A stretch of 38,169 nucleotides of DNA from a methanogenic archaeon (GCA_902763685.1 CACWTF010000003.1:1-38169); one strand, 5' to 3'. Positions 1-31,759 are shown, counted from the first letter of the stretch. The notes: generated by a model not told the origin, from the sequence alone. Made by a program: numbers and translations.

Positions 1-185
1 TACAATACTTTATGCCGCTTTGTTCGAGGCTTCTTTGCGCCCCATAAGCAACGCCGACGCGAAACACGCCGCCGTAATAATCAGCACAAAACGACGTCCG
101 CCGAAAAAGCCCAGATATTCCGGCAGTTTCACCGTATGATAGCGGTTGTAGAGGATACCGGCTTCAATACCGCTGACGATACCGG
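1..185 (-). other. Segment resembling bacterial PTS EIIC, probable chimeric junction
   Basis: Read on the minus strand, these bases encode NRYHTVKLPEYLGFFGGRRF and flanking residues. This is the signature of PTS EIIC glucose/N-acetylglucosamine/maltose permeases and is not expected in a FecCD permease. Codons are of enterobacterial type (CTG CCG GAA, CGT CGT, GCG GCG), whereas neighbouring genes use AGG and CTC heavily. The FecCD match stops at about 185-200. The segment is either an assembly or contig-end chimera or a real recombination event; the sequence alone cannot decide. Confidence 0.6.
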
Positions 186-2562
186 CCAGCACGTAATTGA
201 TCGATTTGCCACCCGTCTTCACGGCCAGCAGCATAGTGCATCCGAACGCCAGGAGACCTCCCACGATGGCGGATGCGGCGGTGAGGTAGATGCTCTGGGA
301 AGGGAAAAGTCCGAAGAACGTGAAATCGGCCAGTATCACCGCGACAGCGAAGGTACCGGCACCGGAGGACACACCCATGATGTACGGCTCCACCAGCGGG
401 TTCTTGATGACGGCCTGGTACATCGCTCCTGCCACCGACAGCCCGATTCCCACCGCGATGGTGGCAAGGGCACGCGGGAGCCTCTGGTTGTAGATGAGCA
501 TCTCCTCGTAGGTGAGTCCGTGGCCGCCCTTGCCTATAGCGGATGCCGTGGCGGACAGCGCCTCGCCGACGCCCAAGGTGGTGTGGGATCCGATACACAG
601 GGAGAGGATCGCCATGAAGAGCGTGACCAGGGAACCTATCAGTATAACCGCACGGAGCTTACGCTTGCTCTTTGTGTTGTGGGAATAGTTCTCGCCGAAG
701 AAGTAGACCATTATCCTCCTCTTCAGCTCGGCGAACGGCCTGTCCCACTTCTTTCCGTACTTCAGTACCGCGTAAAGGGCAGCGACCGCTATCACCACGA
801 TTACAACGATTATAAGGAGCAGTTCCCACAGTGGCATGGGCTCGGTTATTTCCGGAGGAGTGTACTCCGCCAGTTTCCCTCCGGAGAAGCCGGTCACACC
901 GTTGTCATCGCTGCGGAACACATAGTTGTCGACCACGGTGACGATGGCCATCGCATACCATTTGTTGTCGAAGGAGAACTTTCCGATGATCTCGCCGGAA
1001 AGGTTCATCTCGTAAAGTTCACGCGAAGAATAGGTCGAAATGTACAGTACTTCGTTGTTAACGAGCGTGGGTGTGGCGTGGGTGGCTCTTAGATATCCCA
1101 CTGTGGAAGAAATCTGTGAATAATTGGCGTCCGTATCGATTTTGAAAATACCTTTGTTACACGCCAGTATTACACCGGTAAAATCATCCGTTACATAACG
1201 TGTCAGCATATTGCATGCATATCCCAGATCGGGCTCATCCATGAAATCTTTGATCTTCGTGAGGGTGTTGCTTGTAGTTTCGAACTTATATAGCATCACA
1301 CTGGATTTGGTGGCATTCATCCCCTGCCCGTCAGAATAGGTCATGAACAGATAGTACCCATCAGCATATCTTACGGGAAGCGGCACATTGCACGCACCTA
1401 TCACATTGCCTTGGGAATCGGTTGTCTGATACACTTTTTCCGAGAGGATCAGGCTTCCGTCCTCACGATTGAGAACGTACATGTAACCATCGTACGCTCC
1501 CGCAAACACATAGTCGTCAATAACTGTCAGAGGCGTGTAATATGCAGGACCCTGCATCTGGTATGACCAAACTAAATCAAGGTTCTGATCGAAACAATAC
1601 ACCATTCCGTTATGGGCCTTGAAGAAGATGCATCCTGAATTGAAAACAATCGCCGCAGGGCCACGACCGTAGGATGATGCATAATCCAAATCCTTTTCGG
1701 GAATGTGTGCGGTCTGAATTACATTGGAGTTGCCTGATCCGGGGCCGATGTGAATGTCAAAAGAAAATACATAGCCTGCGGTCGTCGGGATATAGACTCT
1801 ATCTCCGGCTATGGCAGGGCAAGCCATCTCCATCTGCTGGGAGGTGTAGGTGAAATCCCAAACCACACTTCCTGTTGCAGCATTGAATGCCTTGAGGTGC
1901 CCACCCGTTTTGATAATGGCCATGCCGTCAGCGTATAGCGTACCGCAATAGCACCCATACGCACTCATCGCAGAACCGTCTCCGTGAGTAGCCCATAAGG
2001 GCACCACCTCCTGCGGATTCCGCTCAACGGTCTGATTCACCGAATTCTCTGAATCTCCTGCAATCATGACCCATGCTGTTTTGTACTCGGGACTGACCGT
2101 AGGGACCATACCATCGGGATAGAACCCTACTGCCAATTTGTTCATTGCGTAGAGCCCATCATACTCCGAAGAATCGACAACAATCCATTTGGAGAGGTTG
2201 TTACTCCAATAGTACATGTGCCAGTACGATTCCACGATTACTCCCGTGGTGCCAGGTTCGGTAATGGATCCCCCCGTGACTGCTTTACCGGTCGTACGTA
2301 CAGAAAGGCCATCGATCGTAATCGTGCTGCCGGAGATCGAGCAGGTTTTCCCCGCATCATTCAATGTAGCAATCACAGTAGAGGACAGTTTTGATGACAC
2401 ATGTGTGGGCACCCATTCCGTATGTCCGTTTCCGTAATCTATCAGGAAATCGCCGTGCACATATTCGCTAGAATCAGCATCTGTTTCCGATGAACAATAT
2501 GACACCGCCACTACAGTAAAGACGATGAGCACGGCCAATATAGGGAATGGGCTTACTTTCAT
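10..2562 (-). CDS. Secreted beta-propeller fused to FecCD-type permease, with foreign C-terminal tail
   Basis: About 850 residues. A signal peptide or anchor (1-30) precedes a beta-sandwich-like region (about 35-170) resembling the DUF4430-like modules in the two upstream genes. A PQQ/YncE-like propeller follows (about 180-590, blades with repeated V-W-x-Y and G-x-V-Y/F motifs), then a membrane helix near 600-625. From about 650 there is a FecCD/BtuC-type permease with the family motif RLPRALATIAVG and NPLVEPYIMGVSSGAG, so the gene probably imports an iron chelate or corrinoid. The permease stops about halfway, after NYVLAGI. The last ~55 residues (LYNRYHTVKLPEYLGFFGG, RRFV) look instead like a PTS EIIC glucose-family permease, with bacterial-looking codons, so the end is probably chimeric. 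ATG at 2562 is preferred over GTG at 2571 because GGTGA lies just before it. Stop is TAA. Base composition is more AT-rich than the rest of the window. Confidence 0.75.
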   Translation of the reverse strand: MKVSPFPILAVLIVFTVVAVSYCSSETDADSSEYVHGDFLIDYGNGHTEWVPTHVSSKLSSTVIATLNDAGKTCSISGSTITIDGLSVRTTGKAVTGGSITEPGTTGVIVESYWHMYYWSNNLSKWIVVDSSEYDGLYAMNKLAVGFYPDGMVPTVSPEYKTAWVMIAGDSENSVNQTVERNPQEVVPLWATHGDGSAMSAYGCYCGTLYADGMAIIKTGGHLKAFNAATGSVVWDFTYTSQQMEMACPAIAGDRVYIPTTAGYVFSFDIHIGPGSGNSNVIQTAHIPEKDLDYASSYGRGPAAIVFNSGCIFFKAHNGMVYCFDQNLDLVWSYQMQGPAYYTPLTVIDDYVFAGAYDGYMYVLNREDGSLILSEKVYQTTDSQGNVIGACNVPLPVRYADGYYLFMTYSDGQGMNATKSSVMLYKFETTSNTLTKIKDFMDEPDLGYACNMLTRYVTDDFTGVILACNKGIFKIDTDANYSQISSTVGYLRATHATPTLVNNEVLYISTYSSRELYEMNLSGEIIGKFSFDNKWYAMAIVTVVDNYVFRSDDNGVTGFSGGKLAEYTPPEITEPMPLWELLLIIVVIVVIAVAALYAVLKYGKKWDRPFAELKRRIMVYFFGENYSHNTKSKRKLRAVILIGSLVTLFMAILSLCIGSHTTLGVGEALSATASAIGKGGHGLTYEEMLIYNQRLPRALATIAVGIGLSVAGAMYQAVIKNPLVEPYIMGVSSGAGTFAVAVILADFTFFGLFPSQSIYLTAASAIVGGLLAFGCTMLLAVKTGGKSINYVLAGIVSGIEAGILYNRYHTVKLPEYLGFFGGRRFVLIITAACFASALLMGRKEASNKAA

Positions 2563-2563
2563 C

Positions 2564-4006
2564 TCACTCACCGAATCCCAAATGGCTTGTATATTTCAGA
2601 TAGTCCTGATAGTCATCACCGATGGCGTTGGGGATTACGACACCATCCGTAAACGCATCAGGGTTGACGATCCTGGCCACGAGTTCGGTCAACTGTGCGA
2701 TCCTCGGGCCGGAACGCTGTGCCATCTCCCCTAGTCCGTCAGCGAAAAGGTAGATTTTGCCGTTGGTATAAGCATCCGTGTTCTTCCACTCATCGGATAA
2801 AGCATTAAGCATCTCATCATAGCTACCAACGGGATATTTCCCATAATCGAATATGATTATGCAAGAGGGGTTCGTGTCCATTATTATGGATGGAGTTACG
2901 TTACGCCATCCAGTCTTAGGTGTTTTGCTTGGCCATACAGGATCGTTGATGGCATTAGAACCATTCATTTTGTACAGCATATCGTTCACATAGGTCCCTG
3001 TACCCGCAATGAACGGAGAGGGGTCTGAACTCAGCGTAACGAGGGTCTTGTATCCCTCGTTCGCATTGGTTAGTGCGATAAGGGTATCGAGTGCGATGTC
3101 GATCTGTGAGGCCAGATATGCTGCACGCAATTCGTAATTCATCGCAGTTCCCACGATGAATATGTTATTGAGAACGGTCTCGAGGTCGGCCCCATCATAG
3201 ATAACCACGGAATTGACATTGGAATTCCGCAAAGAACTCGCCACGGTTACATGAGAATATGCTGAAGCATCGCAGAATACCATGTCAGCATGAGCATGCA
3301 GAATAGCTTCGTAACTAGGATCCGTATATGTTCCTACAACATCAATCGTATGCTCTGCCTTCCCCTTAGCTATGATTGATGGATAATTGCTGGAGTCGTC
3401 CGTACCGATGATGATATCTGCAGCATCCATGGCACCAACCAATTCAGTACATACGGGGGACAGGGTTACTAGGGAATGAGGCATGGAATAACCGTAGATC
3501 GAAGTTGCGGTAGCATCCACGCCGATGGTGGGTTTACCATCCGTTTCGGTATATGCCCATGAAATCAGGGTGTAATCGGATGCGTTTATTGAATAGGTGT
3601 CGCTCTTCACATAATCGTACTTGCCTTTCTCGATGTACCAAAGGTCCCAGGTATGCTGGGCATCGTTGGAAGTCACGGTTTCTCCATCATCTATACCGGT
3701 CAGAACCCCATCTGTGAAGATAGGCGTTGTACTGTAGTGGGAATCGCAGGCCTTATTCAGCAATTCGACCGGATCGTCTGTCTCGCTGAAACTGATGTTT
3801 GTCCAAACAGTTTTGTAATTCCCGAAATCTATAACGACTCCCTCAGATTGGTATTGGGTCGCATTTGCTCCCAAACCATGTATAAGAAAAGTCGTACATC
3901 CCCCGATTAATATGACCGCGATGGTTAGTAACACCTTTACGCGAATGATACGGTTTCCAGCATCCGTCGAAACACGGTCCCTACTAATCCAGGAATTGTC
4001 CACCAT
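2564..4006 (-). CDS. ABC transporter substrate-binding protein (BtuF/FecB-like) with N-terminal DUF4430-like domain
   Basis: About 480 residues. An N-terminal hydrophobic segment (around residues 25-45) directs export or anchoring. Residues ~55-165 form a beta-rich module that starts GVVIDFGNYKTVW, like the modules in both neighbouring genes. Residues ~170-450 match class III periplasmic binding proteins of the BtuF/FecB/TroA fold, with SLVTLSPVCTELV, DIIIGTDDSSNYP, and ADMVFCDAS followed by the long linker helix. It would capture a corrinoid, haem or iron chelate outside the membrane and hand it to the permease encoded next. The upstream GTG at 4015 is an alternative start to the ATG at 4006. 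It overlaps the start region of the downstream gene by a few bases. The ATPase subunit is not in the window. Substrate is inferred from family only. Confidence 0.75.
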   Translation of the reverse strand: MVDNSWISRDRVSTDAGNRIIRVKVLLTIAVILIGGCTTFLIHGLGANATQYQSEGVVIDFGNYKTVWTNISFSETDDPVELLNKACDSHYSTTPIFTDGVLTGIDDGETVTSNDAQHTWDLWYIEKGKYDYVKSDTYSINASDYTLISWAYTETDGKPTIGVDATATSIYGYSMPHSLVTLSPVCTELVGAMDAADIIIGTDDSSNYPSIIAKGKAEHTIDVVGTYTDPSYEAILHAHADMVFCDASAYSHVTVASSLRNSNVNSVVIYDGADLETVLNNIFIVGTAMNYELRAAYLASQIDIALDTLIALTNANEGYKTLVTLSSDPSPFIAGTGTYVNDMLYKMNGSNAINDPVWPSKTPKTGWRNVTPSIIMDTNPSCIIIFDYGKYPVGSYDEMLNALSDEWKNTDAYTNGKIYLFADGLGEMAQRSGPRIAQLTELVARIVNPDAFTDGVVIPNAIGDDYQDYLKYTSHLGFGE

Positions 4007-4024
4007 CTTTTTCACAACAAGTGG

Positions 4025-5285: not shown

Positions 5286-6911
5286 TCACATCAGGATTTC
5301 GAATCCGTCGAGGTGAAGGAGCTTGTCCTTGCACTCCCTCTCGCAGTGCCTGCATGCGGTTCCTGCACACCTGTCGGACATCACGGTGGCGATGGACCCT
5401 CCGTCGCAGGGATCGAGGGACAGTGCCTTCTCGGGACACCTGCGTACGCACTTGCCGCAGAGGTGGCAGCCCTCGACCTTCCCTTTCAGGAAGGTACCGG
5501 TGGGCACGGTCTTGACGGGTGCGACCTCTGTATCGGGCAGGTCGGCCTTGGCGAGCCTCTTGACGGTGACGTTCTCCTTGGGCTTACCGAGAGGAGGCAG
5601 CTGGTACATCTCGAGCATCTCGTCGTACATGGACATCGGCATACCGGTGCACCAGACGGAGTACTCGATGGAGTAGAGGTTCTTGAAGACCTCCGAGGTG
5701 GCGAACATGCAGTGCTCCGCCTTGAGCTTCTCGGCGAAGGCACGGAGGGTGTCGAGATCCATCTGTCCCAGAGCGATCTTACGGGCCATCTCGATGGAGG
5801 TGTTTCCGAACTGGATGAGGTGCTCCGCTCCGGGAACGACCATACCGATTCCGAGTGCCTTGATGGCATCCACGTAGAGTCCGGACGCTCCGGACATGTA
5901 GGCGGTCTTGACGTCGCCGGTCCACATGCCTGCGGTCCTGAGGAGGGTGAGGAATCCTGCCCTCATGGCTCCGATAGCCTTTCCTGCCTCGTCCACGTCG
6001 TGGGAGTTGATGTAGATGCCATCCTGCAGGTGGAGGAGTCCGTCGGCGGTCTTGATCTCGGGAGGCACGATGATGCCTGCCTTCATACCGCAGTCGAGGG
6101 CGGCGACGGTTCCGGTACCGGTGATTCCGATGGCCTTCATCTTTCCCTTCCTTACGACCTTGCCGGTGAGGGGGTCGATGACATCTCCCTTCTGGGGGAT
6201 CATGGACTCGTCGAGAACTGTGCACTCCCATCCGTCCTCCACGATGTTGACGTCGGAGATGGCTCCGGGTGCAGCGAGCATTCCCTTCTCGATCTCCTGT
6301 CCCTCCATGGCGGGTCCGGCGGCCGCGGAACCGGTGAAGATCCTTCCGTCGCCGCAGATGAGTGCCATTTCGGCGTTGGTTCCGTAATCGACGACCAGAG
6401 CGGGCTCCTTGGATTCGTGCACGTTGGTCATGAGGAGCATGGCGATCGCATCGGCTCCGATCTCGTGCCTAACTGCGGGAGGGATGATGACCTCGGCGTT
6501 GGGCATTCCCTTGAGACCCATGTCGCTTGCTTTGAGGACCGCTCCGTTCCTCTCGATCTTCTTGACGCCGAGGGTCTTGAGCATGTTCTCCCCGGCGAAG
6601 GCGAGGTCCCTGATCTCGATGTTCTGGAAGAGGGACATCTGGAAGGTGTTACCGCAGACTCCGACCCTCTTGACCTTGGAAAGGTCGATGCCCAGGTTGG
6701 CGAAGAGTGAGTTCGCACAGGTGACGATGAGCTTGTTGGCCACATCCGCTCCGGATTTCATGGCGAAGTTGACGTGGTCGATGACGTTCATTCCGGGGAT
6801 AGGGTGCCTCTGGGTGATGGCGGTGGCAACGGTCTTGCCGGTGTCCATTTCGATTGCCTGACAGCGGAGACCGCTGGTTCCGATGTCGAGTGCGATTGCG
6901 TAATCGGTCAT
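5286..6911 (-). CDS. ramA: RamA-type corrinoid protein reductive activase
   Basis: 541 residues from ATG 6911. RamA uses ATP hydrolysis to reduce inactive Co(II) corrinoid proteins of methylamine and methanol methyltransferases to Co(I), in the cytoplasm. The N-terminus is an actin-like ASKHA ATPase fold (AIALDIGTSGLRCQ), followed by the DUF4445-type core with VVDYGTNAEMALICGDG and FTGSAAAGPAMEGQEI. The C-terminal ~60 residues carry two ferredoxin-like motifs: CHLCGKCVRRCP, then a second cysteine set CAGTACRHCEREC. A minus-strand TATA box at 6931-6942 lies about 26 nt from the ATG, so the transcript is probably leaderless; the longer upstream frame is not needed. The methyltransferase genes it would serve are outside the window. 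A related corrinoid activase of another methyltransferase is possible, but the 2x[4Fe-4S] tail fits RamA well. Confidence 0.9.
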   Translation of the reverse strand: MTDYAIALDIGTSGLRCQAIEMDTGKTVATAITQRHPIPGMNVIDHVNFAMKSGADVANKLIVTCANSLFANLGIDLSKVKRVGVCGNTFQMSLFQNIEIRDLAFAGENMLKTLGVKKIERNGAVLKASDMGLKGMPNAEVIIPPAVRHEIGADAIAMLLMTNVHESKEPALVVDYGTNAEMALICGDGRIFTGSAAAGPAMEGQEIEKGMLAAPGAISDVNIVEDGWECTVLDESMIPQKGDVIDPLTGKVVRKGKMKAIGITGTGTVAALDCGMKAGIIVPPEIKTADGLLHLQDGIYINSHDVDEAGKAIGAMRAGFLTLLRTAGMWTGDVKTAYMSGASGLYVDAIKALGIGMVVPGAEHLIQFGNTSIEMARKIALGQMDLDTLRAFAEKLKAEHCMFATSEVFKNLYSIEYSVWCTGMPMSMYDEMLEMYQLPPLGKPKENVTVKRLAKADLPDTEVAPVKTVPTGTFLKGKVEGCHLCGKCVRRCPEKALSLDPCDGGSIATVMSDRCAGTACRHCERECKDKLLHLDGFEILM

Positions 6912-7246
6912 ACGGCGAGTATCGGAATCCCTTATTATAGAATTAACTGGGCTGGGTGTGGGGTATGCTGAGGACGACCGCTGTATCGGACGTGTGACCC
7001 ACGCCCGGGATCCCCCGCAACGATGCATGACCTCCAGCTTCTGGAAAACAGGGCCTCCCGCTTCGGGAAAACGGTGAATCGCAGATTGTTCCTGTTCTCG
7101 ATCTCGGGATTCGACCGGGATCTAACAGACTGTGTTGATCCCAACAGGGTCATCCTCGTCGGTCCCGAGACCATCCTGCCGTGCAAACCCCTGCCCAGCC
7201 TCCGCTGACCGCCATTGCCAAATATCCATATCGGGATACCCGCGGC
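6912..7246. other. Divergent intergenic region between ramA and aminopeptidase
   Basis: 335 bases. The ramA end has a minus-strand TATA box (TTCTATAATAAG, 6931-6942). The other end has a plus-strand AAATATCC at 7220-7227, about 25 nt before the aminopeptidase ATG. The ~270 bases between hold only short open frames with no recognisable product. No tRNA or riboswitch fold was recognised. Confidence 0.6.
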
Positions 7247-8714: not shown

Positions 8715-9974
8715 TCATCTGAGCCTGGGAGTGAACAGACCGTTGAACACAGCGTCGAGGACCTGTTCCGTTCCGCCCGTACCGAGTATGGGCCTCTCCA
8801 CGAAACCGTACCTCTTCAAGTAGGGAAGCTGCATCTCGATGCCCGCTCTGCACCGGCCGCTCTTCTCATAGATACCCGCGGTCATCCCGTCGGAAAACAG
8901 CAGATCGCAGCGTTCATCGGTCAGCTCATCCGACAACGCGTTCCCGCAATGGATGGAGTCCAGGAAACTTTCCAATTCCTCCGTGAACTCCGGCGACCAC
9001 CATCCGCACCTGCGGATGCAGCGGGGGAACATGCTGAGGTAGGAATGCATCCATTTCACCAAAGGCAGGACGATCTCCGAATCGAGACTGACGGAGTATG
9101 TCTTGCCCCGGGTCAGCGATGCACCGTGGGTGAAACTCATCATGATCCTGGTCGACCTGACCCTGCGTTCGGCGGTACATTCCAATGCCGTATCCGGGGA
9201 TGCCCCTGCCCTTTCCGCCACTGCCCTTATCCAGTCATCGGTACCTCTGAAACCGAACGGTACCGGTGCGAAAAGGGTGGGCACGCCCAGCGACTCCAGG
9301 GTCTCCGCCGTGTGCCTGCAGAACTCCGGAAGGACGGAGATGTTGAATTCGGCCGAAGGGCATCTCAGGAGTTCGTCGTAGGTGCACCCGGCACCGATCC
9401 ATGCGGTTACCCTGAGGCCCATGCTCTCCAGATATCCGGTCAGTTCCCGTTTCGTCTCCTCCCATCCGTTCATCAGGATGGGCAGACCCATAACGTTGAC
9501 CGTACCCTTTACCTTCTCACGCCTGGCACATACTGCCCGTATGATCTCCGAGAGCGTGACATCGTAGCCCGCCGAGGCAGGCATGGACATCTGACAGACC
9601 CTCTGCACGACCTTCGGGCCCTTGTAATCGGAACGTGCCAACGCCCCTGTCAGGTCATCGCCGATGAGGGAGGTGCCCGGGGTCTGTATGACCGTGACGA
9701 GCTTCACATCGCCCACCGTGGCCAGGAGTTCAGTCAGTTTGTACTCCGAACCGTTGATGTAATCGTTCGTGTCGAGATAGGTGCAGGGGACCCTGCAGTT
9801 TCCGTAATAAAAGGGGCCCTCGCGGGGGACGTAATCCCTGCGGATGAGATGTTCTGCCATCGTACTGTTCATGGCACGGCATGCTCCCGGTCCGTGGAGG
9901 ACCGTGAAACCGTCCGCTATGCTCTCTGAGGCCTGTATCGAGGCCATGAATCCGTCATAATTCACCGGGATCAT
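8715..9974 (-). CDS. Nitrogenase component 1-like protein (NifK/BchB-like partner subunit)
   Basis: 419 residues. It has the NifD/K/E/N fold: VLHGPGACRAM near residues 26-36 (Cys32 at a cluster-ligand position), a VKLVTVIQTPGTSLIGDDL segment, and later GLPILMNGWEET and GLRVTAWIGAG as Rossmann-like repeats. Where its fused partner has Cys (SACVAGIIGDD), this protein has TPGTSLIGDD, and the first cluster Cys is also missing. A heterodimer could therefore bind one [4Fe-4S] with three Cys from the partner and Cys32 from here, as in DPOR/COR-type reductases. The gene follows the fused gene with no gap (TGAATG), so they are co-translated and surely partners. Not CfbD, which is a single homodimeric subunit. 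Reaction unknown. Confidence 0.8.
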   Translation of the reverse strand: MIPVNYDGFMASIQASESIADGFTVLHGPGACRAMNSTMAEHLIRRDYVPREGPFYYGNCRVPCTYLDTNDYINGSEYKLTELLATVGDVKLVTVIQTPGTSLIGDDLTGALARSDYKGPKVVQRVCQMSMPASAGYDVTLSEIIRAVCARREKVKGTVNVMGLPILMNGWEETKRELTGYLESMGLRVTAWIGAGCTYDELLRCPSAEFNISVLPEFCRHTAETLESLGVPTLFAPVPFGFRGTDDWIRAVAERAGASPDTALECTAERRVRSTRIMMSFTHGASLTRGKTYSVSLDSEIVLPLVKWMHSYLSMFPRCIRRCGWWSPEFTEELESFLDSIHCGNALSDELTDERCDLLFSDGMTAGIYEKSGRCRAGIEMQLPYLKRYGFVERPILGTGGTEQVLDAVFNGLFTPRLR

Positions 9975-12068
9975 TCACTCCCTCCATTCCTCTGTCAGCG
10001 GGGAATCGAACATGTACCCCAGCTGCTCCGCGTAATCCATCAATCCCTCGAACCCGGGATTCGGAGTACCGATGTATCTCCCGAGGACCTTCAGATTGAG
10101 GTCCGAGAAACTGTCGGTGAGTATCGCGTCCGGATGGTACTTCTCCACCGCCTCGGAGGTATCCGAACGGTGATGGACCTTCTTCCCCTGTGCGGCATCG
10201 TATCCCACCAGGGATATGCGGTAGGTGTCTTCCATACTGTAAACCACCTCGATACCCAGATCGTCGAGGAGATCTGTGAACCACTCGCGGTCGGATGCGG
10301 GGGACAGTACCAGGACCACCTTCTTCCCGACGGTCCTTTCCCTGATGGGGGCCAATCTTTCCCTGTATTCCGATGCATAGCGTTCCTTCGCCTCCGAGAG
10401 ATCGCGGCCGGTGAGCGATTCGACCTCCGACAGCCATTTCTCGATCGCGGCCATTCCCCTGGGCAGCGGATTCTTCATCAGTGTCGAACCGATCATATCG
10501 TTCAGACGGCTCCCGAGTTCACGGAAACGCTTGCTGCCGTTAGACAGGACCGAATACTTCGCTCTGGGCAGTCTCTTCAGGGTTTCTATGTCGGTCCATC
10601 CGGGATAGATCGCGTTGATCTCGAATCCCGCGGAACGTATCAGATCGACCACGGAATCGTCCATGAACGAGTGGAACTCGTCCAATGCACGGAAATCGCC
10701 GATGACGTTGATCAGCCGATCGTCCTTCTCCGAACACGGCTCGGTCATTTCCAGGATGCTCTCGAGGACGTATTCTCTGCCTGCGGAGAGATCCCCCTGT
10801 GCGATGCCGTCGACCTTGACGGGAACTATGTGGATTCCGCATTCCTTGGACATGCTGGTACATATCGCATCTATGTCATCACCGATGATTCCTGCCACAC
10901 AGGCAGACACGACGAAGATGTGTTCATCCCCTTTCTCGGCACGTTCGCGGATGAGCCTCTCCAGCTCCTTCCTCCCGCCGTAGATGGAATTGGAATCGGT
11001 AAGATTGGTGCACGAAACAGAGTCCCATACCGACCTCATATCATCGCGATGGGAACGGTTCAGGTTACGCATATCGACGAAGCTCACCATCTCGTATGCA
11101 CAGCAGGTGGGACCGTGCACTATGATGTGTACGCCCTCGATCCTGGAGAGCATGGCCAGTGCCCCGCAGAATGCACATGTGTGTATCGCCGAGGGCTCGG
11201 TAGTGGGCGATCGGATCCTTTTGTAATCCAGTTTGTTGGCCTCGGTGACGTCCAGTCCTTTGGCCACCAGATCCATCCCCGCATCGTCAAGCGGATGCGG
11301 GTGATACAGCTTGGAGGAATCGGCGGATTTGGACAGGATGTCCTCGGCGATCTTCGCCATGGCTTCGGCGGGTTCCGAACCAGGGAACGCCTGGGACACG
11401 GTCCTGCCCATCGCCTCGGACTCCCTGAACCTGTGGTCGCGGGGGATGACAGAGATTATGGGGAGCCCTACGGATTTGGCGAAGTTCTCCACATAACGGT
11501 ATTCGTCCTGCAGACCGCGGCAGTTGAGGATGATCCCGCCCACACGCGGTGTCCCGTCATCGAAATTCAGCATTCCCTTGAGGATGTTGTTGGCGGCATA
11601 CAGGGACATGAACTCCCCGGAGGTCACGATGTAGACGGCATCGGCATAATCCTTCCTCATCGGGACGGCGAAACCGCCGCATACCACATCCCCTAGGACA
11701 TCGTAGATATGGTAATCGTAATCCCTGTCCATTATCCCGTTGGATTTCAGGAAGTCGAACATGGTGAGGATCCCCCTGCCGGCACATCCGACGCCGGGTT
11801 CGGGTCCTCCCGCTTCTATGCATTGGATGTTGCCCGCACCGTTCATCACGACATCGTTGATGTTGCGGTGTTCCTTCGGGGTATCGCGGAGATAATCCAG
11901 GACCGTGGTCTGGGACTTACCTTCCAGGAGCAGCCTGGTGGAATCATGCTTGGGATCGCAGCCTATCTGGAGGATCCTCTTCCCCTTCTCGGACAGCTGG
12001 TATGATACATTGGCGGATACGGTGGATTTACCGATACCTCCCTTGCCGTAAAATGCGATGTGGAACAT
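9975..12068 (-). CDS. Fused NifH-like ATPase plus NifD-like subunit of a nitrogenase-like reductase
   Basis: 697 residues. Residues 1-~270 are a NifH/BchL/CfbC-like iron protein: P-loop YGKGGIGKST, bridging cluster cysteines Cys95 (GVGCAGRG, with Arg98) and Cys130 (DVVCGGFAVP). Residues ~290-697 are a NifD-like catalytic subunit with cluster cysteines in HTCAFCGA (298/301), GPTCCAYE (322/323) and SACVAGIIGDD (390). The family normally makes these as separate proteins, so this is a reductase and its electron donor in one chain. It would pass ATP-driven low-potential electrons to a substrate bound with the partner encoded next. Candidates from family knowledge are tetrapyrrole, sulfur compound or other unsaturated substrates. 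It has its own TATA-like box (GGTATATACATCC, about 12093-12105). The downstream partner makes a simple F430-type CfbCD assignment unlikely. Confidence 0.85.
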   Translation of the reverse strand: MFHIAFYGKGGIGKSTVSANVSYQLSEKGKRILQIGCDPKHDSTRLLLEGKSQTTVLDYLRDTPKEHRNINDVVMNGAGNIQCIEAGGPEPGVGCAGRGILTMFDFLKSNGIMDRDYDYHIYDVLGDVVCGGFAVPMRKDYADAVYIVTSGEFMSLYAANNILKGMLNFDDGTPRVGGIILNCRGLQDEYRYVENFAKSVGLPIISVIPRDHRFRESEAMGRTVSQAFPGSEPAEAMAKIAEDILSKSADSSKLYHPHPLDDAGMDLVAKGLDVTEANKLDYKRIRSPTTEPSAIHTCAFCGALAMLSRIEGVHIIVHGPTCCAYEMVSFVDMRNLNRSHRDDMRSVWDSVSCTNLTDSNSIYGGRKELERLIRERAEKGDEHIFVVSACVAGIIGDDIDAICTSMSKECGIHIVPVKVDGIAQGDLSAGREYVLESILEMTEPCSEKDDRLINVIGDFRALDEFHSFMDDSVVDLIRSAGFEINAIYPGWTDIETLKRLPRAKYSVLSNGSKRFRELGSRLNDMIGSTLMKNPLPRGMAAIEKWLSEVESLTGRDLSEAKERYASEYRERLAPIRERTVGKKVVLVLSPASDREWFTDLLDDLGIEVVYSMEDTYRISLVGYDAAQGKKVHHRSDTSEAVEKYHPDAILTDSFSDLNLKVLGRYIGTPNPGFEGLMDYAEQLGYMFDSPLTEEWRE

Positions 12069-12153: not shown

Positions 12154-12918
12154 TCACTCCTTGACGGCTTCGTAGATGTTCACGGCACCGAAGTTCTTGC
12201 TGTGGACCTTGACAGTCTTGAAACCGGCCTGTCTGAACTTCTCGGCCATGACCTCGCCGTGCGGGAATCCGCGGATGGAGTTGACGAGCCAGTCATAAGC
12301 GGGACCGTGCCCGTCGATGCTCTCGCCCTTGTCGTACTTCCTTCCGATCTTCTGTACGCGGTGTTTCATGTACAGGTTGTAGAAGTAGCGGATGAACCTG
12401 TTGTCGGGAGTGGCCATCTCCGCGATGACCGCCTTCCCTCCGTGCTCCAGGACACGATAGAACTCGTCGATGGCCTTCTGCACATCGGTGACGTTCCTGA
12501 GCATGTATCCGGAGGTGACGACCGAGAACGAACACTCAGGGTACTGGAGATCCAAAGCATCCCCGACCTCGAACCTCACCGGATTGGGGAGGTTCCTCTC
12601 GGCTTGTTTCATCTCGGCGTATTTCAGCATCTCGGGGGTGATATCGATTCCGACGACCTCCCCCTCGGCTCCGACCTTCTCGGCCAGCATGTACGCGATC
12701 TCGCCGGTACCAGTACCGATGTCGGCACACCTCTTCCCGGAGATGTCGCCAGCGAGCTTCATCATGTACTGGTGCCAGCCCTTGATCATCTTGAGGGACA
12801 TGATGTCGTTCATCTCGTCGTAGTAGGAGGCGATCTCGGTGAACACGTCCTTGACGTATTCCTCTTTGCCCTCGAACTGGGTTCCGTTGCTCTTGATCTC
12901 TTCCTCTGCCATTTTCAT
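12154..12918 (-). CDS. UbiE/MenG-like SAM-dependent C-methyltransferase
   Basis: 254 residues. The family methylates prenylated quinone or related rings with S-adenosylmethionine. Seen here: the UbiE signature YYDEMNDIMSLKMIKGWH (residues ~32-49), SAM motif I ADIGTGTGEIAYML, GIDITPEMLKYAE, and the post-motif CSFSVVTSGYMLRNVTD. It follows the prenyltransferase gene by 3 bases, so the two probably act in sequence: prenylation of an aromatic or polar head group, then methylation. No other quinone biosynthesis gene is in the window, so the product (menaquinone-like, phenazine-like or another lipid carrier) is open. A second in-frame ATG at 12912 is also possible. Confidence 0.85.
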   Translation of the reverse strand: MKMAEEEIKSNGTQFEGKEEYVKDVFTEIASYYDEMNDIMSLKMIKGWHQYMMKLAGDISGKRCADIGTGTGEIAYMLAEKVGAEGEVVGIDITPEMLKYAEMKQAERNLPNPVRFEVGDALDLQYPECSFSVVTSGYMLRNVTDVQKAIDEFYRVLEHGGKAVIAEMATPDNRFIRYFYNLYMKHRVQKIGRKYDKGESIDGHGPAYDWLVNSIRGFPHGEVMAEKFRQAGFKTVKVHSKNFGAVNIYEAVKE

Positions 12919-12921
12919 GCC

Positions 12922-13827
12922 TCAGATTACGCAGTTTCCGACTATGTAGCCGATGACCAGCAGCAGACCGAACTGCCAATTGTGTTTGAATGCCATCGGG
13001 ACCAGCAGCCTGCTGCACCCCGCGTCGGTGGGGGCCTTCTTGCTGTTCGCGTACAGTTCGTGAGCGTCGACCAGACATATAAAGGCCAATGCACAGAAGT
13101 AATGGACGGTGCCGAACATCAGCAGTGCCATCAGGATGGCGTATCCAACGAAGTTCTCGAACAGGTAGAGCTTCATACCGTTCTCGTAGGACATGCGTCC
13201 CGCCAGGGTACCTACGTTGGACTTCCTGTCCTCGTAGTAGTCCCTCATCTCGTTCCCGCACAGGACGGCGGTGATCATGAACGCGTTGGGGAGGGAAATG
13301 AGGAACACCTCGGCAGAGAGTTCCCCGGTCATCACGTAATATGTGCCGAGGGGCATCAGGATACCCATGAGTATGAATACCCCCACCTGTCCCAGACCGT
13401 GGTATTTGTAAGACACTCCCACGGTGTACATGGCGGCTCCTCCGAGTCCCAGGATACCGAAGATGAGGATTCCCCAACCTATGTACCAAATGAACACGAG
13501 ACCGCAGAGGGCGACGATTCCGAGACATGCCAGACCCGCATAGAGGACCTTCTTGGCACTCAGGGCACCGGTGACGAGTTCGGGGGAACGGGTGTGGTTC
13601 TCTTCGGTGTCGGTACCTCTCACGAAGTCACCGTAGGTGTTTAGGATGTTGGCTGCTGACTGAAGGAGGATGCAGCACGCCACTGTCATCAGGAAGATCC
13701 ACCAGCAGAATTCGCCGTCGTTGTATGCCACGGCTCCTCCGAGGAGTGCCGGTATGACCGCACCGTGGAGCGTCCACGGGCGGAACACGTTGAACCATCC
13801 TGCCTTAACGGGTTTGACATCGGCCAT
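12922..13827 (-). CDS. MenA/UbiA-family prenyltransferase
   Basis: 301 residues, about 8-9 membrane helices. It would join a polyprenyl diphosphate to an aromatic or other acceptor in the membrane. The first Asp-rich motif is NTYGDFVRGTD (residues 63-73); the second is NEMRDYYEDRKSNVGTLA (about 192-209), close to the MenA pattern. The paired UbiE-like methyltransferase directly downstream supports a lipid-soluble redox carrier pathway. Archaeal UbiA members also make ether lipids (digeranylgeranylglyceryl phosphate synthase), but the motifs and the methyltransferase favour the MenA side. Its 5' region is shared with the divergent DUF2975-like operon and contains the TATCGATAA operator-like repeat. 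Confidence 0.85.
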   Translation of the reverse strand: MADVKPVKAGWFNVFRPWTLHGAVIPALLGGAVAYNDGEFCWWIFLMTVACCILLQSAANILNTYGDFVRGTDTEENHTRSPELVTGALSAKKVLYAGLACLGIVALCGLVFIWYIGWGILIFGILGLGGAAMYTVGVSYKYHGLGQVGVFILMGILMPLGTYYVMTGELSAEVFLISLPNAFMITAVLCGNEMRDYYEDRKSNVGTLAGRMSYENGMKLYLFENFVGYAILMALLMFGTVHYFCALAFICLVDAHELYANSKKAPTDAGCSRLLVPMAFKHNWQFGLLLVIGYIVGNCVI

Positions 13828-23604: not shown

Positions 23605-23697
23605 GGAATCCCGTCCGCCTATAAAGGGATGTTCGCGTGTTACGGATTGGGAATCCCCGTATATTGTTCGTATGTGTTCGGAGTAGGTTTATTAACG

Positions 23698-23708
23698 CTC
23701 AGTGTTAT
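23698..23708. promoter_or_regulatory. Shared 11-bp element at the nikR start
   Basis: CTCAGTGTTAT, ten bases before the nikR ATG. A GTAACAC lies at 23727-23733 and a GTGTTAC at 23637-23643. GTGTTAC-type half-sites are known for some NikR proteins (Geobacter), but the spacing here (18 bases between GTGTTAT and GTAACAC) is wider than the known 13-14. Confidence 0.6.
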
Positions 23709-23717
23709 TCACGATGT

Positions 23718-24161
23718 ATGGACGGAGTAACACGCATCGGTGTTTCCTTAGAGCCTGAGCTCCTCAACGAATTCGATAAGATCATCCAGAAAAAAGGATA
23801 CGTCAGCAGATCCGAAGCGATCCGTGACCTGGTTCGCGATTCCCTCGCCGAGAACGAATGGAAGAACGACAAGGACTTCATGTGCGGTGTCATCACCATG
23901 GTCTACGACCACGACACCAACGGACTGAGCGACAAACTCACCGAGATCCAGCATGCGGCACTCCAGACCATCGCCACCACCATCCACATGCACCTCGACC
24001 ACGACAAGTGCCTCGAGATCATCGCGGTACAGGGAGAACTCGGCCAGCTGAAGCAGCTGACGAGCGACCTCGGGGCCATCAAGGGCGTCCTCAGATGCAA
24101 ACTCACCATGGCCGCCAAATCCACCGGACACCTGCATTATATCGGTGTCAGGGGCGACTGA
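23718..24161 (+). CDS. nikR: Nickel-responsive regulator NikR
   Basis: 147 residues. Ribbon-helix-helix N-terminus (RIGVSLEPELLNEFDKIIQ, then SRSEAIRDLVRD) binds DNA; the ACT-like C-terminus senses nickel. The four Ni ligands are present: His79, His90, His92 and Cys98 (IHMHLDHDKCLEI). TTTATTAA at 23688-23695 lies ~26 nt from ATG 23718, so it is probably leaderless; the longer upstream frame is excluded by this promoter. Divergent from the PP-loop gene. Confidence 0.94.
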   Translation: MDGVTRIGVSLEPELLNEFDKIIQKKGYVSRSEAIRDLVRDSLAENEWKNDKDFMCGVITMVYDHDTNGLSDKLTEIQHAALQTIATTIHMHLDHDKCLEIIAVQGELGQLKQLTSDLGAIKGVLRCKLTMAAKSTGHLHYIGVRGD

Positions 24162-25494: not shown

Positions 25495-27891
25495 ATGAAA
25501 ATCCTGATCATCACCGAAAAGGCCAACGCTGCAAGGAGGATCGCAACCATCCTTTCCGACGGCAAGCCCCACTCCGCTTCCGCGGGAGGTGTCACCTCAC
25601 TCACATTCAACGTAGGCAACGATGATTACAACGTGGTCAGTCTCCGCGGACACATCATGGAGCTCGACTACTCCGAGAAATACAGCGACTGGAAGGCGAC
25701 CTCCCCCGTAGAACTCGTCCGTGCCCCGCAGATCAAGAACGTCCGTGTGAAATCGATTCTTTCCAAGATCACGGATCTGTCCCGCGAATCCGACGAGATC
25801 ATCATCGCGACCGACTACGACCGCGAGGGAGAACTCATCGGTATGGAGACCGTCAAGGCCGCCAACGTGGACATGAGCAAGGTCAAGAGGGCGAAGTTCA
25901 GCGCACTCACCAAGGGCGAGGTCGAGAATGCCTTCGCCAACCTCGTGGAACCGGACGAGAAGCTCGCCAACGCCGCAGAGGCAAGGCAGGTCGTGGACCT
26001 TTCCTGGGGAGCGGTCCTCACCAGGCTCATCTCACTGTCATCCGGACAGGTCGGTAAGAACTTCATGTCCGTCGGACGTGTCCAGAGCCCCACCCTCAAA
26101 CTCCTCGTCGACAGGAACGAGGAGATCGAGAACTTCGTACCCGTCCCCTACTGGACCATCGAGGGAAGGTTCGGCATGCTGGCATTCAAAGGTACCCACG
26201 AGAAGGGTCAGATCTGGGACGAGAAGGAGGCCCAGGCCATCTTCGATAAGACCCGCAACTGCAAGGAGGCGGTCGTCAGTTCCTACGAGAAGGCCATCAA
26301 AGAGGAATTCCGTCCCCCGCCCTTCGACACCACCATGATGCAGGTAGAGGCCAACAAGATCGGTATCCCCCCTTCCGCCGCAATGAAGATCGCAGAGGAC
26401 CTCTACACCGGAGGATACATCTCCTACCCCCGTACCGAGAACACGGAGTACCCCAAATCGCTCAGCCTGAGGAGCGTCCTTGAGAAACTGAAGGATTCCG
26501 ATATGCGCGAAGAGGCCGAGGAACTCCTCAAACAGGAAAAGATCTCCCCCTCCAGGGGAAAGAGGAGGACGACAGACCACCCCCCTATCTATCCCACCGC
26601 AGGTGCCACGGAAGCCAAGCTCAAGGGTGACAAATGGAAGCTCTACGAGCTCATAGCCAGGAGATTCATGGCCACCGTCGCCCCCAACGCCACCGCGGAG
26701 ACCACCGACACGGTCATCGATGTGAACGGCGAGAAATTCAAGGTCAACGGTTATGTGCAGAAGGAACTCGGCTGGAAGAAATACTACAAGAAGTACCTCC
26801 GCTCCGCAGAGACCCGCGTACCCGAGATGAAGGTCGGCGATACCATCGACGTCAGGAGCGTCGCGAAGGAGGAATCCCAGACCAAGCCGCCCTACAGATA
26901 CAACCAGGGTTCCCTCATCCAGGAGATGGACAGGCTCCAGCTGGGAACCAAGTCCACCAGGCACGACATCATAGGCAAACTGTTCTCCAGGAACTATGTG
27001 CAGGGTAACTACCTCGTCCCCACCGCCAGCGGAATCGCGCTGACCAAGGCACTGGAGAAACACGGCGGAGGCATCACCGAACCAGAGATGACCGCCAAGC
27101 TCGAGAGGGACATGCTGTCCATCACCGACGGCGAGAGGACCCTCGAGGAGGTCGTGGAGGAGTCCCAGAACATGCTGCATGACGTAGCTGTTAAACTGGA
27201 AACCGACAGCACCGCCATCGGCGACGAGATCAAATCCGCCCTGAAGAAGCAGCAGTACGTGGGATTGTGCCCCAGCTGCGGCAACAGCATGACCGTGAAG
27301 AAATCGAAGAACGGCAACTTCATCGGATGCAACGGCTACCCCGAGTGCACCCGTGCCTACCCTCTTCCCAAAGGAGCCCTCGTCCAGATGACCGACACCG
27401 TGTGCCCGGTCTGCGGTCTGGCACAGATCAAGGTTGTCAGGAAGGGAGTACCTCCTTCCACACAGTGCATCGATCCCAAGTGCAAGAGCAACACCGACAA
27501 GAACGATCTCGGCCCCTGCCCCACCTGCAAGAAGGGAACCATCAGACTGATGTATTCCAAGGCAGGGAAGAGGTTCGCAGGCTGTTCCGAATGGCCAGCA
27601 TGCACCCAGACCTATCCGCTCAGGCCCAGGGGTTCCATCGTACCCACCGGCAACACCTGTCCTGAATGCGGGGCCCCGGTCATCTCCCTCGGAAGCATGA
27701 CCGAATGCATCAACATGGACTGCCCGACCCGCGGAAAGAAGACCGTGTCTGCCCCCAAGAAGGAAGGCGACAGTCCCGCCCCCGCTACCGAAAGGAAGGT
27801 CTACACCGTGGTCCTCGGTGACAAAAAGAAGAAGTCTGGCACTGCGAAAAAGACGACTTCGAGGAAAACAGTGAAGAAGAGCTCAGACTGA
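25495..27891 (+). CDS. topA: DNA topoisomerase I (type IA)
   Basis: 798 residues. It relaxes negatively supercoiled DNA by single-strand passage. The TOPRIM domain begins MKILIITEKANAARRIA; the metal-binding ATDYDREGE has Asp107/Asp109/Glu111; the catalytic Tyr311 is in GYISYPRTENTEYP. After residue ~585 there are four C4 zinc fingers (CPSCG, CPVCG, CPTCK, CPECG repeats), then a Lys-rich tail (KKTTSRKTVKKSSD). Full length for archaeal TopA. The 3' end overlaps cobY by 9 bases convergently. Confidence 0.96.
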   Translation: MKILIITEKANAARRIATILSDGKPHSASAGGVTSLTFNVGNDDYNVVSLRGHIMELDYSEKYSDWKATSPVELVRAPQIKNVRVKSILSKITDLSRESDEIIIATDYDREGELIGMETVKAANVDMSKVKRAKFSALTKGEVENAFANLVEPDEKLANAAEARQVVDLSWGAVLTRLISLSSGQVGKNFMSVGRVQSPTLKLLVDRNEEIENFVPVPYWTIEGRFGMLAFKGTHEKGQIWDEKEAQAIFDKTRNCKEAVVSSYEKAIKEEFRPPPFDTTMMQVEANKIGIPPSAAMKIAEDLYTGGYISYPRTENTEYPKSLSLRSVLEKLKDSDMREEAEELLKQEKISPSRGKRRTTDHPPIYPTAGATEAKLKGDKWKLYELIARRFMATVAPNATAETTDTVIDVNGEKFKVNGYVQKELGWKKYYKKYLRSAETRVPEMKVGDTIDVRSVAKEESQTKPPYRYNQGSLIQEMDRLQLGTKSTRHDIIGKLFSRNYVQGNYLVPTASGIALTKALEKHGGGITEPEMTAKLERDMLSITDGERTLEEVVEESQNMLHDVAVKLETDSTAIGDEIKSALKKQQYVGLCPSCGNSMTVKKSKNGNFIGCNGYPECTRAYPLPKGALVQMTDTVCPVCGLAQIKVVRKGVPPSTQCIDPKCKSNTDKNDLGPCPTCKKGTIRLMYSKAGKRFAGCSEWPACTQTYPLRPRGSIVPTGNTCPECGAPVISLGSMTECINMDCPTRGKKTVSAPKKEGDSPAPATERKVYTVVLGDKKKKSGTAKKTTSRKTVKKSSD

Positions 27892-28488
27892 ACCGAAGAG
27901 CTTACGTGCGCGGTCAAGCTCGCCGGGAGTGTTCACATTCACGGCGAGTTCCCGCCATTTTGTGAAGAGGCATTCCTCGTTGAGGTAATCGCCTCTCAGG
28001 GTGGCTTTCCTGTCCATGACGGATATGCCGGAAAGCACCCATTCCTTCCCGTCGATTTCCCTCGAATACGAAGGGGTTATCCCCAGCTCGCGGACGATAG
28101 GAGCCTCGATCATGACCACCATGGATTCCATGGACGGTTTGAAAGAAGTCACCACGTCATCGATGACAGATGATGTCAGAAGGGGGATGTCAGAAGGACA
28201 GGTAAGGACATAATCCCCGCGGAGGACCGCAAAGGATTCGTGGAGATCCATCATGAAGTCCTCGCCCGAGGTACGGATGGTCTCTATCCCGATGTCCTTC
28301 AGATAACGTTCGGTCTCCAGGGTGTTGTGGCTGACCGACACGACGATCTTATGAATGTGTTTGGCGGCCCGCATGGCATCCACCACATGACGGATGGCAG
28401 GCAGACCGCCGATGATCTGCATGGGCTTCTCGATGCCGCAGGCTCCCATACGGGTACCTTTGCCTCCGGCATTGATCAGCGCCTCCAT
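27883..28488 (-). CDS. cobY: CobY, adenosylcobinamide-phosphate guanylyltransferase
   Basis: 201 residues. It transfers GMP from GTP to adenosylcobinamide phosphate, the archaeal non-orthologous substitute for CobU. The nucleotidyltransferase start is MEALINAGGKGTRMG, and the sugar-nucleotide-like core includes TCPSDIPLLTSSVID. It is the last gene of the cobamide operon, after cobS. A general MobA-like NTP transferase is an alternative, but context makes CobY clear. Confidence 0.9.
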   Translation of the reverse strand: MEALINAGGKGTRMGACGIEKPMQIIGGLPAIRHVVDAMRAAKHIHKIVVSVSHNTLETERYLKDIGIETIRTSGEDFMMDLHESFAVLRGDYVLTCPSDIPLLTSSVIDDVVTSFKPSMESMVVMIEAPIVRELGITPSYSREIDGKEWVLSGISVMDRKATLRGDYLNEECLFTKWRELAVNVNTPGELDRARKLFGSV

Positions 28489-28492
28489 CTGT

Positions 28493-29617
28493 TCACCACA
28501 GCGATACTGTAAGCAGGATCAGGGTGATCAGCAGGATGGCTGCCCTTGAGATCTCGTTCGTTGCTCCCAGGACATCGCCGTTGACGAATCCGAAGGTCTT
28601 GTTGGAGACATATGCCATGAGGTATCCGACTCCCACGGACATGAGGATCGCCACGAGCATCAGGAGGATGACGACCGCCAGAGGCAGTTCGGTGTGGATG
28701 GGACACAGACTTCCGATACCCCAGGAGATGAGGGAGGTGATGATCACCAGAACGGTGGTCATGGCGGTGGAGAGGAGCACGTCGTTGAGCTCGGTGTTGC
28801 CGACCTGGTTGGCAGCCATTCCGTTCCCGGGCTTACCGAATGCTGCGGCGGCCACCTGGGCGTTCTTGATGAGGATCTCGAGAGGCCATACGATGAAGGC
28901 CACGGTGATGAACTTGGTCCAGGTGTTGTCCACCTGGGCCCCGACATCCCATGAGAGGGAGGACATGCAGTAGAGACTCAGGAGGATGACAATAAGCGAC
29001 ACACCGTATCCGCCAGCACCGATGAGGCTGTCCTTCAGGGCACGCACATGGTCCTCCTGTTTGTCGGAGGATACGATCAGACCGTCCCCGAAATCCACCA
29101 GTCCGTCGAAATGCAGGAACTTGGAGAAGATGAAAACAGTCGCCATAGCGATAAGTGCCAGAAGTGCGGTGTTAGTCTCCAGGCACAGTCCCAGGACGAG
29201 CACCACGAGGAACACTACGAATCCGTTTATCGCTCCCAGGGCGGGTGCGAGCCAGAAGTTGCGTTCCATGGCGTTGCATTCCTTCTCTCCCACGGAGAGG
29301 GGGATGATCGTGAAGAACGAGATCATCGCCTTAATGGCATCTACCATGTTACCTATGTGGAGTTCCTTGGGTTTGTGTTCGGGTTCTCCCGCAACGACCA
29401 CTTCCTGACTCTCAACGACGGTGAGTTTGTTTCCGTCAGGACTCGTTACGGTCTCTTCGCTGCCCTGCTCGGCAGGCTGCTCTTCGGCGGTCTCCTGCTC
29501 GGCAGGTTTTTCCTCGACAGCCTCCGCCGTCACAGACTGCTCTTCGGCGGTCTCCTGTACGACAGGCTGTTCCTCAGCAGTCTCCTGCTGTCTGTTGTCT
29601 TCGTTGTTGTCACTCAT
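28493..29617 (-). CDS. cobS: CobS, cobalamin-5-phosphate synthase with acidic N-terminal extension
   Basis: 374 residues. The core (from about residue 86) is the integral-membrane CobS fold, which joins adenosyl-GDP-cobinamide to alpha-ribazole(-phosphate); the key motif is LHFDGLVDFGDGLIV. Residues 1-85 are an extra hydrophilic Glu/Gln/Ala-rich arm with repeated QETAEEQ(P/S) units (residues 11-18, 21-28, 41-48). Such an arm is absent from ordinary CobS. The start overlaps the cbiS stop by 8 bases. An internal start near residue 91 would give a conventional-length protein. Confidence 0.9.
   Translation of the reverse strand: MSDNNEDNRQQETAEEQPVVQETAEEQSVTAEAVEEKPAEQETAEEQPAEQGSEETVTSPDGNKLTVVESQEVVVAGEPEHKPKELHIGNMVDAIKAMISFFTIIPLSVGEKECNAMERNFWLAPALGAINGFVVFLVVLVLGLCLETNTALLALIAMATVFIFSKFLHFDGLVDFGDGLIVSSDKQEDHVRALKDSLIGAGGYGVSLIVILLSLYCMSSLSWDVGAQVDNTWTKFITVAFIVWPLEILIKNAQVAAAAFGKPGNGMAANQVGNTELNDVLLSTAMTTVLVIITSLISWGIGSLCPIHTELPLAVVILLMLVAILMSVGVGYLMAYVSNKTFGFVNGDVLGATNEISRAAILLITLILLTVSLW
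29465..29595 (-). repeat. Acidic repeat encoding QETAEEQ units in CobS
   Basis: The trinucleotide-rich GCTCTTCGGCGGTCTCCTG (plus strand) recurs with variants inside the N-terminal extension of CobS, giving three to five related heptad-like units. Confidence 0.7.
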
Positions 29618-30722: not shown

Positions 30723-31759
30723 AGTACACCAATGATACGGTAGATGAAGTCCTCGAATATAATCTGAACGTGGATTCCCAGGAACATTAGGAGAGGGACG
30801 GCGATTATAAGAAGGAACAGCACCGAGGCGGCCTCTATGAGGCGGTAGCACCTCCCGATGTCATCGATGGTGGGTAACGGGCCTTCGCCCATGACATAGA
30901 CCCCTTCCTTCTCGAAGGACACACCCATCGCCGCCGCGGTGGCGGTCATCGGCCATCCGCTGTTTGGACTGGGGGTCTTGGTATGCTCTTCGATAGCCGC
31001 CCTCATGGCGGGCCTGCGGTTCTTCAAACGCATGAGCCAGGCGGCGAATCCGACGAACAGGGGGGATAGTCTCGAAGGGATGAATCCGAGCACGTCGTCC
31101 CACCTGGCGGGGAAATGTCCGATGTCCTTGTACTTCTCGTTGAGGCGCCCCCACATGGCATCCATGAGGTTGGCACACCTGAACGCCACCGCTCCGGGCA
31201 GTCCGAAGATACCGAAATACATCAGCGGGGAGACCACGCTGTCCACCAGATTCTCCGAGATGGTCTCGCAGCAGGAGGAGGTGATGTGGGGCAGATCCAT
31301 GCCTGCCATCTTCCTGTTCACCATCATCTGGGTCTTCGCTGCCGCGGCCTCGGTATCCCCGTTGCGGAGATCATCCTCTATGGGCCTGCAGAACCTGCGG
31401 AAGGCGAAAAGGGCGAAGGATAGCTTGGTGAGGTAGGCGGTGGCGAAGATCCATAACAACTCGCCCACGCTGAGGTCCACACCCAACACATCGAAGGGAT
31501 AGGCATCGCCCATCAGGATGCGGATGCCGCCCGTGACCAGGAGTGCGATTCCGCCGAACAGCAGCAGCACGAAAAGGTACGAGAAGAAACCCATCAGCAC
31601 CGCGGTCTTCGACTGCCTCCTCTTCACACGGTTGTCGATGGCGTTGAGCAAATTGCCCATCCACCGGAGGGGATGGTATTTGTTGGAGGGGTCTCCGAGA
31701 CAGCGGTCGATGACAAGTGCCAGCACGGCAATGAGAACTGCGTCCGCCCAAAGCTGCAT
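30719..31759 (-). CDS. cbiB: CbiB, adenosylcobinamide-phosphate synthase
   Basis: 346 residues, multi-helix membrane protein. It couples adenosylcobyric acid with aminopropanol phosphate. The CobD/CbiB family start is IDRCLGDPSNKYHPLRWMG; further cues are ITSSCCETISENLVDSVVSP and FRCANLMDAMWG. One base after the cobD stop, so in the same operon. Confidence 0.92.
   Translation of the reverse strand: MQLWADAVLIAVLALVIDRCLGDPSNKYHPLRWMGNLLNAIDNRVKRRQSKTAVLMGFFSYLFVLLLFGGIALLVTGGIRILMGDAYPFDVLGVDLSVGELLWIFATAYLTKLSFALFAFRRFCRPIEDDLRNGDTEAAAAKTQMMVNRKMAGMDLPHITSSCCETISENLVDSVVSPLMYFGIFGLPGAVAFRCANLMDAMWGRLNEKYKDIGHFPARWDDVLGFIPSRLSPLFVGFAAWLMRLKNRRPAMRAAIEEHTKTPSPNSGWPMTATAAAMGVSFEKEGVYVMGEGPLPTIDDIGRCYRLIEAASVLFLLIIAVPLLMFLGIHVQIIFEDFIYRIIGVL

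Follow-up and report, generated by a model that had tools for sequence, protein, structure and literature searches.

A nitrogenase-like reductase with a fused electron donor in methanogens and anaerobic bacteria that may act on imported tetrapyrroles

A two-gene locus in a methanogenic archaeon raises the question of what is reduced by a nitrogenase-like enzyme whose electron donor is joined to its catalytic subunit. The locus lies on contig C3 (CACWTF010000003.1, 38,169 nt; hereafter the window) of assembly GCA_902763685.1, a genome of 1.54 Mb in 89 contigs that is 94% complete. Among named records, the window is nearest to Methanomassiliicoccales and Methanomethylophilaceae MAGs, and the host is a methanogen related to gut species.

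The fusion gene HD (9975–12068, minus strand; 697 aa, stop TGA) joins a NifH domain to a NifD/E-like domain. Its electron-donor domain, H (11253–12068, minus strand; residues 1–272), contains the P-loop GKGGIGKST at residues 8–16 as well as the cluster residues Cys95 and Cys130, all of which the first-pass annotation had read correctly; its D domain (9978–11201, minus strand; residues 290–697) carries the candidate ligands Cys298, Cys323 and Cys390 and lacks the cofactor Cys. Pfam places PF00142 (Fer4_NifH) on residues 3–265 (E = 2.8e-91) and PF00148 (Oxidored_nitro) on residues 298–654 (E = 1.2e-50) of this one ORF. The partner gene K (8715–9974, minus strand; 419 aa), NifN/K/BchB-like and matching PF00148 over residues 12–412 (E = 1.8e-37), opens at the base directly after the end of the HD ORF (12068–9975, then 9974–8715), in agreement with the earlier description of a gapless NifK/BchB-like partner. 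Read-through of the TGA to give a single HD and K protein found no support, as K lies in another frame in nearly all relatives (113 of 118 pairs, usually overlapping). AlphaFold2 models of HD and K, each predicted separately, were of good quality, with mean pLDDT values of 89.4 (pTM 0.65) and 94.6, respectively; a low-confidence stretch at HD residues 284–287 is consistent with a flexible linker joining two domains. In model comparisons, H matched solved NifH structures with target TM-scores near 0.9, and K matched nitrogenase beta subunits and BchB at 0.75–0.81.

Scanning 84,980 species, each represented by one genome, yielded 77 loci from the best 80 of 232 matches. In 64 of these 77, H and D share one ORF, among methanogens as well as anaerobic bacteria, ruling out a frameshift or assembly artefact as the origin of the fusion. 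Among the same 77 loci, separate H and D genes occur in an intact-looking pair, or nearly so, at L059, L061, L077 and L101; L083 looks broken, and the remaining non-fused loci are ambiguous or cut by contig ends. Hosts among the matches listed include the archaea Methanomassiliicoccales, Methanospirillum, Methanoregula, Methanoculleus, Methanosarcina, Methanococcoides and Methanolobus, and the bacteria Desulfocicer vacuolatum, Syntrophaceae, Chloroflexi and termite-gut Spirochaetes; the named strains with HD-K are Methanospirillum stamsii, Methanococcoides vulcani, Methanolobus psychrotolerans and Desulfocicer vacuolatum. L109, recorded as Accumulibacter, may be a MAG with the wrong label. Carriage of the pair by five Spirochaetes loci (L120, L123, L127, L131, L135) suggests transfer between gut archaea and bacteria. 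Stops reported within some K matches fall, in the loci examined (e.g. L021, L026), at the end of the K frame.

All HD-K scores lie under every curated family cut-off, including those of TIGR03282, NF033200 and the Bch models: H reaches 317 bits with CfbC (cut-off 402) and 316 with NifH (394), D 106 with NifE (505) and K 58 with BchB (490), and the CfbD model gives 30 bits (268). In the H tree, 25 fused-family H parts lie on one side of a branch with support of 99/97, apart from CfbC, NifH and BchL/X. In a joint D/K tree, which took in separate group IV-like proteins and left out MarD and MarK themselves, the 25 D parts form one group and the 26 K proteins another (100/100 each). The H, D and K clades lie outside Nif, Bch, Cfb and the separate group IV-like proteins included, the exact Bch position being unsure because the Bch rows are few and form single long branches.

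The pair has the hallmarks of the nitrogenase superfamily, namely a NifH-type P-loop, two cluster Cys and two PF00148 proteins with P-cluster-type Cys. It departs from nitrogenase (NifHDK) in lacking the cofactor Cys in D and the set of six P-cluster Cys, and in its clade. With DPOR/COR (BchLNB, BchXYZ) it shares a ligand pattern without a FeMo-type cofactor, BchY/BchZ having 3+1 Cys in the same alignment, whereas it scores below the Bch cut-offs, forms clades apart, has H fused to D, occurs in non-photosynthetic hosts and has importer and CbiZ genes in its operon. From these sequence comparisons, HD-K is supported as a distinct, cluster-only member of the superfamily with its electron donor built in, as had been proposed for an ATP-type reductase: it stands outside the CfbC/CfbD clades, its host has a separate cfb set, and the fusion is conserved.

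That cfb set, cfbA-cfbC-cfbE-cfbD, lies on contig C11, and its CfbD is the genome's only PF00148 protein besides HD and K. Because this cluster is present on another contig, the reading of HD-K as the F430 enzyme fails, and with the clades apart a fused F430 enzyme is ruled out; the proposed search for cfbC and cfbD elsewhere in the genome thus recovered both. CfbC/CfbD does reduce a tetrapyrrole, and the H part is about equally similar to CfbC and NifH, whereas CfbD is a single D-type subunit acting as a homodimer, and the cfbC and cfbD genes of this genome are separate. HD-K is also very unlikely to be an additional enzyme of F430, for instance one for a modified form of it: CfbC is the top-scoring model for H, by a very small margin, and many hosts are methanogens, but cfbC and cfbD are already present, the clades lie apart, the CfbD model gives a mere 30 bits, and HD-K occurs in bacteria (e.g. 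Desulfocicer, Treponema) and is missing from many CfbD-bearing genomes of the order.

Cys95 and Cys130 of H are both invariant across an alignment of 60 relatives. Ligand positions of D and K were read from an alignment of the HD-K family with NifD/E/K/N, BchN/B/Y/Z, CfbD and separate group IV-like D/K proteins. In D, each of the three P-cluster-type columns holds Cys, in 24/25, 25/25 and 25/25 members; in the window these are Cys298 (codon 11175–11177), Cys323 (11100–11102) and Cys390 (10899–10901, all minus strand). The earlier claim of three cluster Cys in D holds, as these are the NifD/NifE columns, except that it took Cys322 as the middle ligand; position 322 is Ser in most relatives, and it is the second Cys of GPTCC, Cys323, that serves as the candidate ligand. 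In K, the middle cluster column alone has Cys (26/26 members; Cys32 in the window, codon 9879–9881, minus strand), matching the single retained Cys reported before, and the third column is Pro in 26/26. Cys64 of K is common without being invariant, and none of the reference families shown has Cys in that column. The cofactor-binding column has Cys in 6/6 NifD, 5/6 NifE and 5/5 separate group IV-like D proteins and in 0/25 of the HD-K family, in which acidic residues are frequent just past it.

Cys298, Cys323 and Cys390 with Cys32 of K are therefore 3+1 candidate ligands for one [4Fe-4S] cluster. NifEN also has 3+1 Cys for a [4Fe-4S] cluster. Given this pattern and the missing cofactor Cys, catalysis beside a [4Fe-4S] cluster, in the style of protochlorophyllide reductase, appears more likely than use of a FeMo-type cofactor. 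The same columns bear on whether HD-K could be a scaffold for the assembly of an iron-sulfur cofactor, like NifEN, which we regard as most improbable. D is nearest to NifE in profile and structure-sequence searches, and the 3+1 ligands are those of NifEN; against this, the Cys with which NifE holds its cofactor is missing in 25/25 family members, D and K fall outside the NifE/NifN clades, NifH is a separate protein in the NifEN system, and the genome offers no client, CfbD being the sole other PF00148 protein.

HD-K might instead reduce a small molecule other than a tetrapyrrole, at a C–S, C–O or C–N bond, in the style of methylthio-alkane reductase. MarK is the first match of K among solved structures in a sequence-profile search, the superfamily fold is shared, and many paralogues occur per genome. 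We nevertheless consider this quite unlikely: MarDK uses FeMo-type clusters (PMC12552129), whereas HD-K lacks the cofactor Cys, which the separate group IV-like D proteins compared do have; HD-K lies outside the group IV D/K clade, as represented by those separate proteins with MarD and MarK absent from the tree; and its neighbours are tetrapyrrole genes.

Gene neighbourhoods in relatives supply these tetrapyrrole genes. In Methanospirillum, Methanoregula and Methanoculleus (Methanomicrobiales), the genes form a single operon of the order cbiZ-chlI-chlD-btuF-btuC-(btuD)-HD-K, with cobN and an ABC-2 exporter nearby on the opposite strand. Methanomassiliicoccales loci have the same parts in varied order, and a Chloroflexi MAG has cobN-cbiZ-x-HD-K with divergent btuF, btuD, btuC, chlD and cobN. 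Close relatives of the window pair with an importer/CbiZ/chelatase setting are found at L059, L061, L062, L067 and L068. Over 39 long loci, the neighbours were FecCD (25), CobN (18), ChlD (15), ChlI (14) and CbiZ (12); at least one of CobN, CbiZ, ChlD, FecCD and CbiK was present in 28 and none in 11. These figures are well above those that gene counts would lead one to expect (p 1e-9 to 1e-16), in loci that share ancestry and are not independent. A CbiK-like chelatase gene occurs in six loci, and TonB receptors adjoin HD-K in two bacteria, Desulfocicer and Syntrophaceae.

Import or chelation genes are thus found near HD-K across lineages. Because genes for the uptake of B12-like rings and for insertion or removal of their metal lie beside HD-K in many microbes, such a ring, rather than nitrogen gas, is probably reduced. 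Among tetrapyrroles, CbiZ, the main corrin hint (12 of the 39 long loci), and BtuC-type import point to corrinoids, within importer families that are broad. The reading we lean towards is that HD-K would be an ATP-driven, [4Fe-4S]-only reductase of an imported tetrapyrrole, most likely a corrinoid, tied to import and metal chelation; the substrate left unnamed in the first-pass annotation would be narrowed to this extent by the neighbourhoods of relatives. Weighing against this reading are the 11 long loci with no such neighbours, the looser arrangement in the window, a complete genome with K relatives and no CobN, and the numerous paralogues in some genomes.

The breadth of the importers also bears on whether HD-K reduces the metal of an imported chelate, a metallophore or metal-macrocycle, for release, the ligand itself not being reduced. 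FecCD/Peripla_BP_2 importers serve siderophores too, the Desulfocicer TonB receptor scores similarly with siderophore, heme and B12 models, and some loci have an importer without a chelatase. This is unlikely all the same, as CobN-ChlI-ChlD and CbiZ have no siderophore role and most of the iron in such anaerobes is Fe(II).

Parts of this setting occur in the window. A Peripla_BP_2 substrate-binding protein (2564–4015, minus strand) is probably an importer part, of a family found after HD-K in Methanoplasma (L074, L080, L082), by which it would be linked to HD-K. Next to it, a beta-propeller protein with a FecCD permease domain (10–2571, minus strand) belongs to the same family as one in Methanoplasma loci, its FecCD shortened near the contig end; full-length versions in Methanoplasma have about 970 aa. 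The closest of these importer genes lies 4.7 kb downstream of HD-K, with other genes intervening. As context, an operon with cobY-like, cobS, cbiZ, cbiB and cobD-like genes for corrinoid loop assembly/salvage (27883–32879, minus strand) lies 16 kb from HD and includes the genome's sole CbiZ (29610–30851). The contig also encodes a NikR-type nickel regulator (23637–24161). A RamA-type corrinoid protein reductive activase (5286–7028), two genes downstream of K, was rejected as a partner, being near HD-K in none of the other 77 loci (best 80 of 232 matches). Side-by-side UbiE-like and MenA/UbiA-like genes directly upstream of HD (12154–13827), possibly for synthesis of a quinone-like lipid in this methanogen, were likewise set aside as HD-K-linked, since the cluster does not recur in relatives.

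The host's chelatase genes are on contigs other than that of HD-K; of the three CobN genes, two are on contig C6, where they and a ChlI-like gene are set between hemL/hemB-like and cbi-like genes, names that, except for CbiC, were read directly from the sequence. Among 147 genomes from the window's order, 81 have both K and CobN, 11 K only, 3 CobN only and 52 neither (Fisher p 5e-25, shared ancestry ignored), so that 81 of the 84 CobN-bearing genomes have K; the complete genome G071 has K relatives and no CobN. In eight CobN-like genes from related genomes (L199–L206) that are otherwise open, all 11 in-frame stops are TAG, at mostly variable positions with one common to three genes, which suggests pyrrolysine read-through. 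K relatives occur in 92 of the 147 genomes, as many as 12 in a single one, although some few of the lowest-scoring matches may be other family members. G090, G092 and G015 are among the genomes with expanded K-type paralogues; a maximum of 12 in one small genome is unusual, and the expansion suggests more than one substrate.

For tetrapyrrole reduction by HD-K, we propose that reduced ferredoxin would charge a [4Fe-4S] cluster held between two H domains, and that ATP hydrolysis would drive single electrons to the [4Fe-4S] cluster held by Cys298/323/390 and Cys32 of K. By analogy with protochlorophyllide reductase, the electrons would then reduce a double bond, or the bound metal, of a macrocycle sitting between D and K, and the chelatase would put in or take out the metal before or after reduction. 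Nitrogenase and DPOR use two H monomers per catalytic half. As H is fused 1:1 to D, (HD-K)2 would hold a single H dimer, against two in known relatives; this dimer might serve the two halves in turn, or larger assemblies might form. A tentative and rather unlikely extension is that HD-K with CobN-ChlI-ChlD carries out anaerobic remodelling of scavenged corrinoids, ATP-driven single electrons reducing the ring or cobalt and the chelatase removing or exchanging the metal to give a metal-free or new metallo-corrinoid. We are aware of no enzyme able to take cobalt out of a corrin.

Meheust in 2020 is said to have associated group VI nitrogenase paralogues with radical SAM genes. A tetrapyrrole role has been predicted for these paralogues, as cited in a later paper (PMC9391474). 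The fused architecture itself has been mentioned before: Dos Santos 2012 (PMC3464626) noted a fused nifH-nifE followed by a nifN-like gene, with data not shown and excluded from trees, and fused nifH/nifE genes are mentioned by Borrel 2014 (PMC4153887) and a 2024 fusion survey (PMC11237513). The passages on it in these three papers describe the same architecture in overlapping taxa (Methanomassiliicoccales, Methanosarcinales, Methanomicrobiales, Deltaproteobacteria) and, unlike the present analysis, give no function, tree or ligand analysis for the fused gene. We found no published function for the family in the literature searched, and the papers searched do not describe its gene setting; that setting, in which BtuCDF-type importers, CbiZ and CobN-ChlI-ChlD, a class I chelatase, lie beside HD-K, is what is new here.

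Chlorophyll synthesis is the known case of a class I chelatase, the Mg chelatase BchHID, being coupled to nitrogenase-like ring reductases of H and D/K type, and the genes are neighbours there too. HD-K with CobN-ChlI-ChlD repeats this pairing in non-photosynthetic anaerobes. A 2025 HmuS/chelatase study (PMC12583661) found the use of CobN/ChlH/HmuS homologues in archaea unclear and the archaeal homologues annotated as CobN not near cob genes, whereas the archaeal CobN genes described here have HD-K in their vicinity and, on C6, cbi genes. This link offers a testable answer for the archaeal homologues: a nitrogenase-like reductase, together with a B12-type importer, may be their working partner. 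If true, it would add one more tetrapyrrole reduction to a superfamily known for those of chlorophyll and F430, and the donor–acceptor fusion, which provides a single H for each catalytic half, would lend itself naturally to testing half-site control of electron delivery in enzymes of the nitrogenase type.
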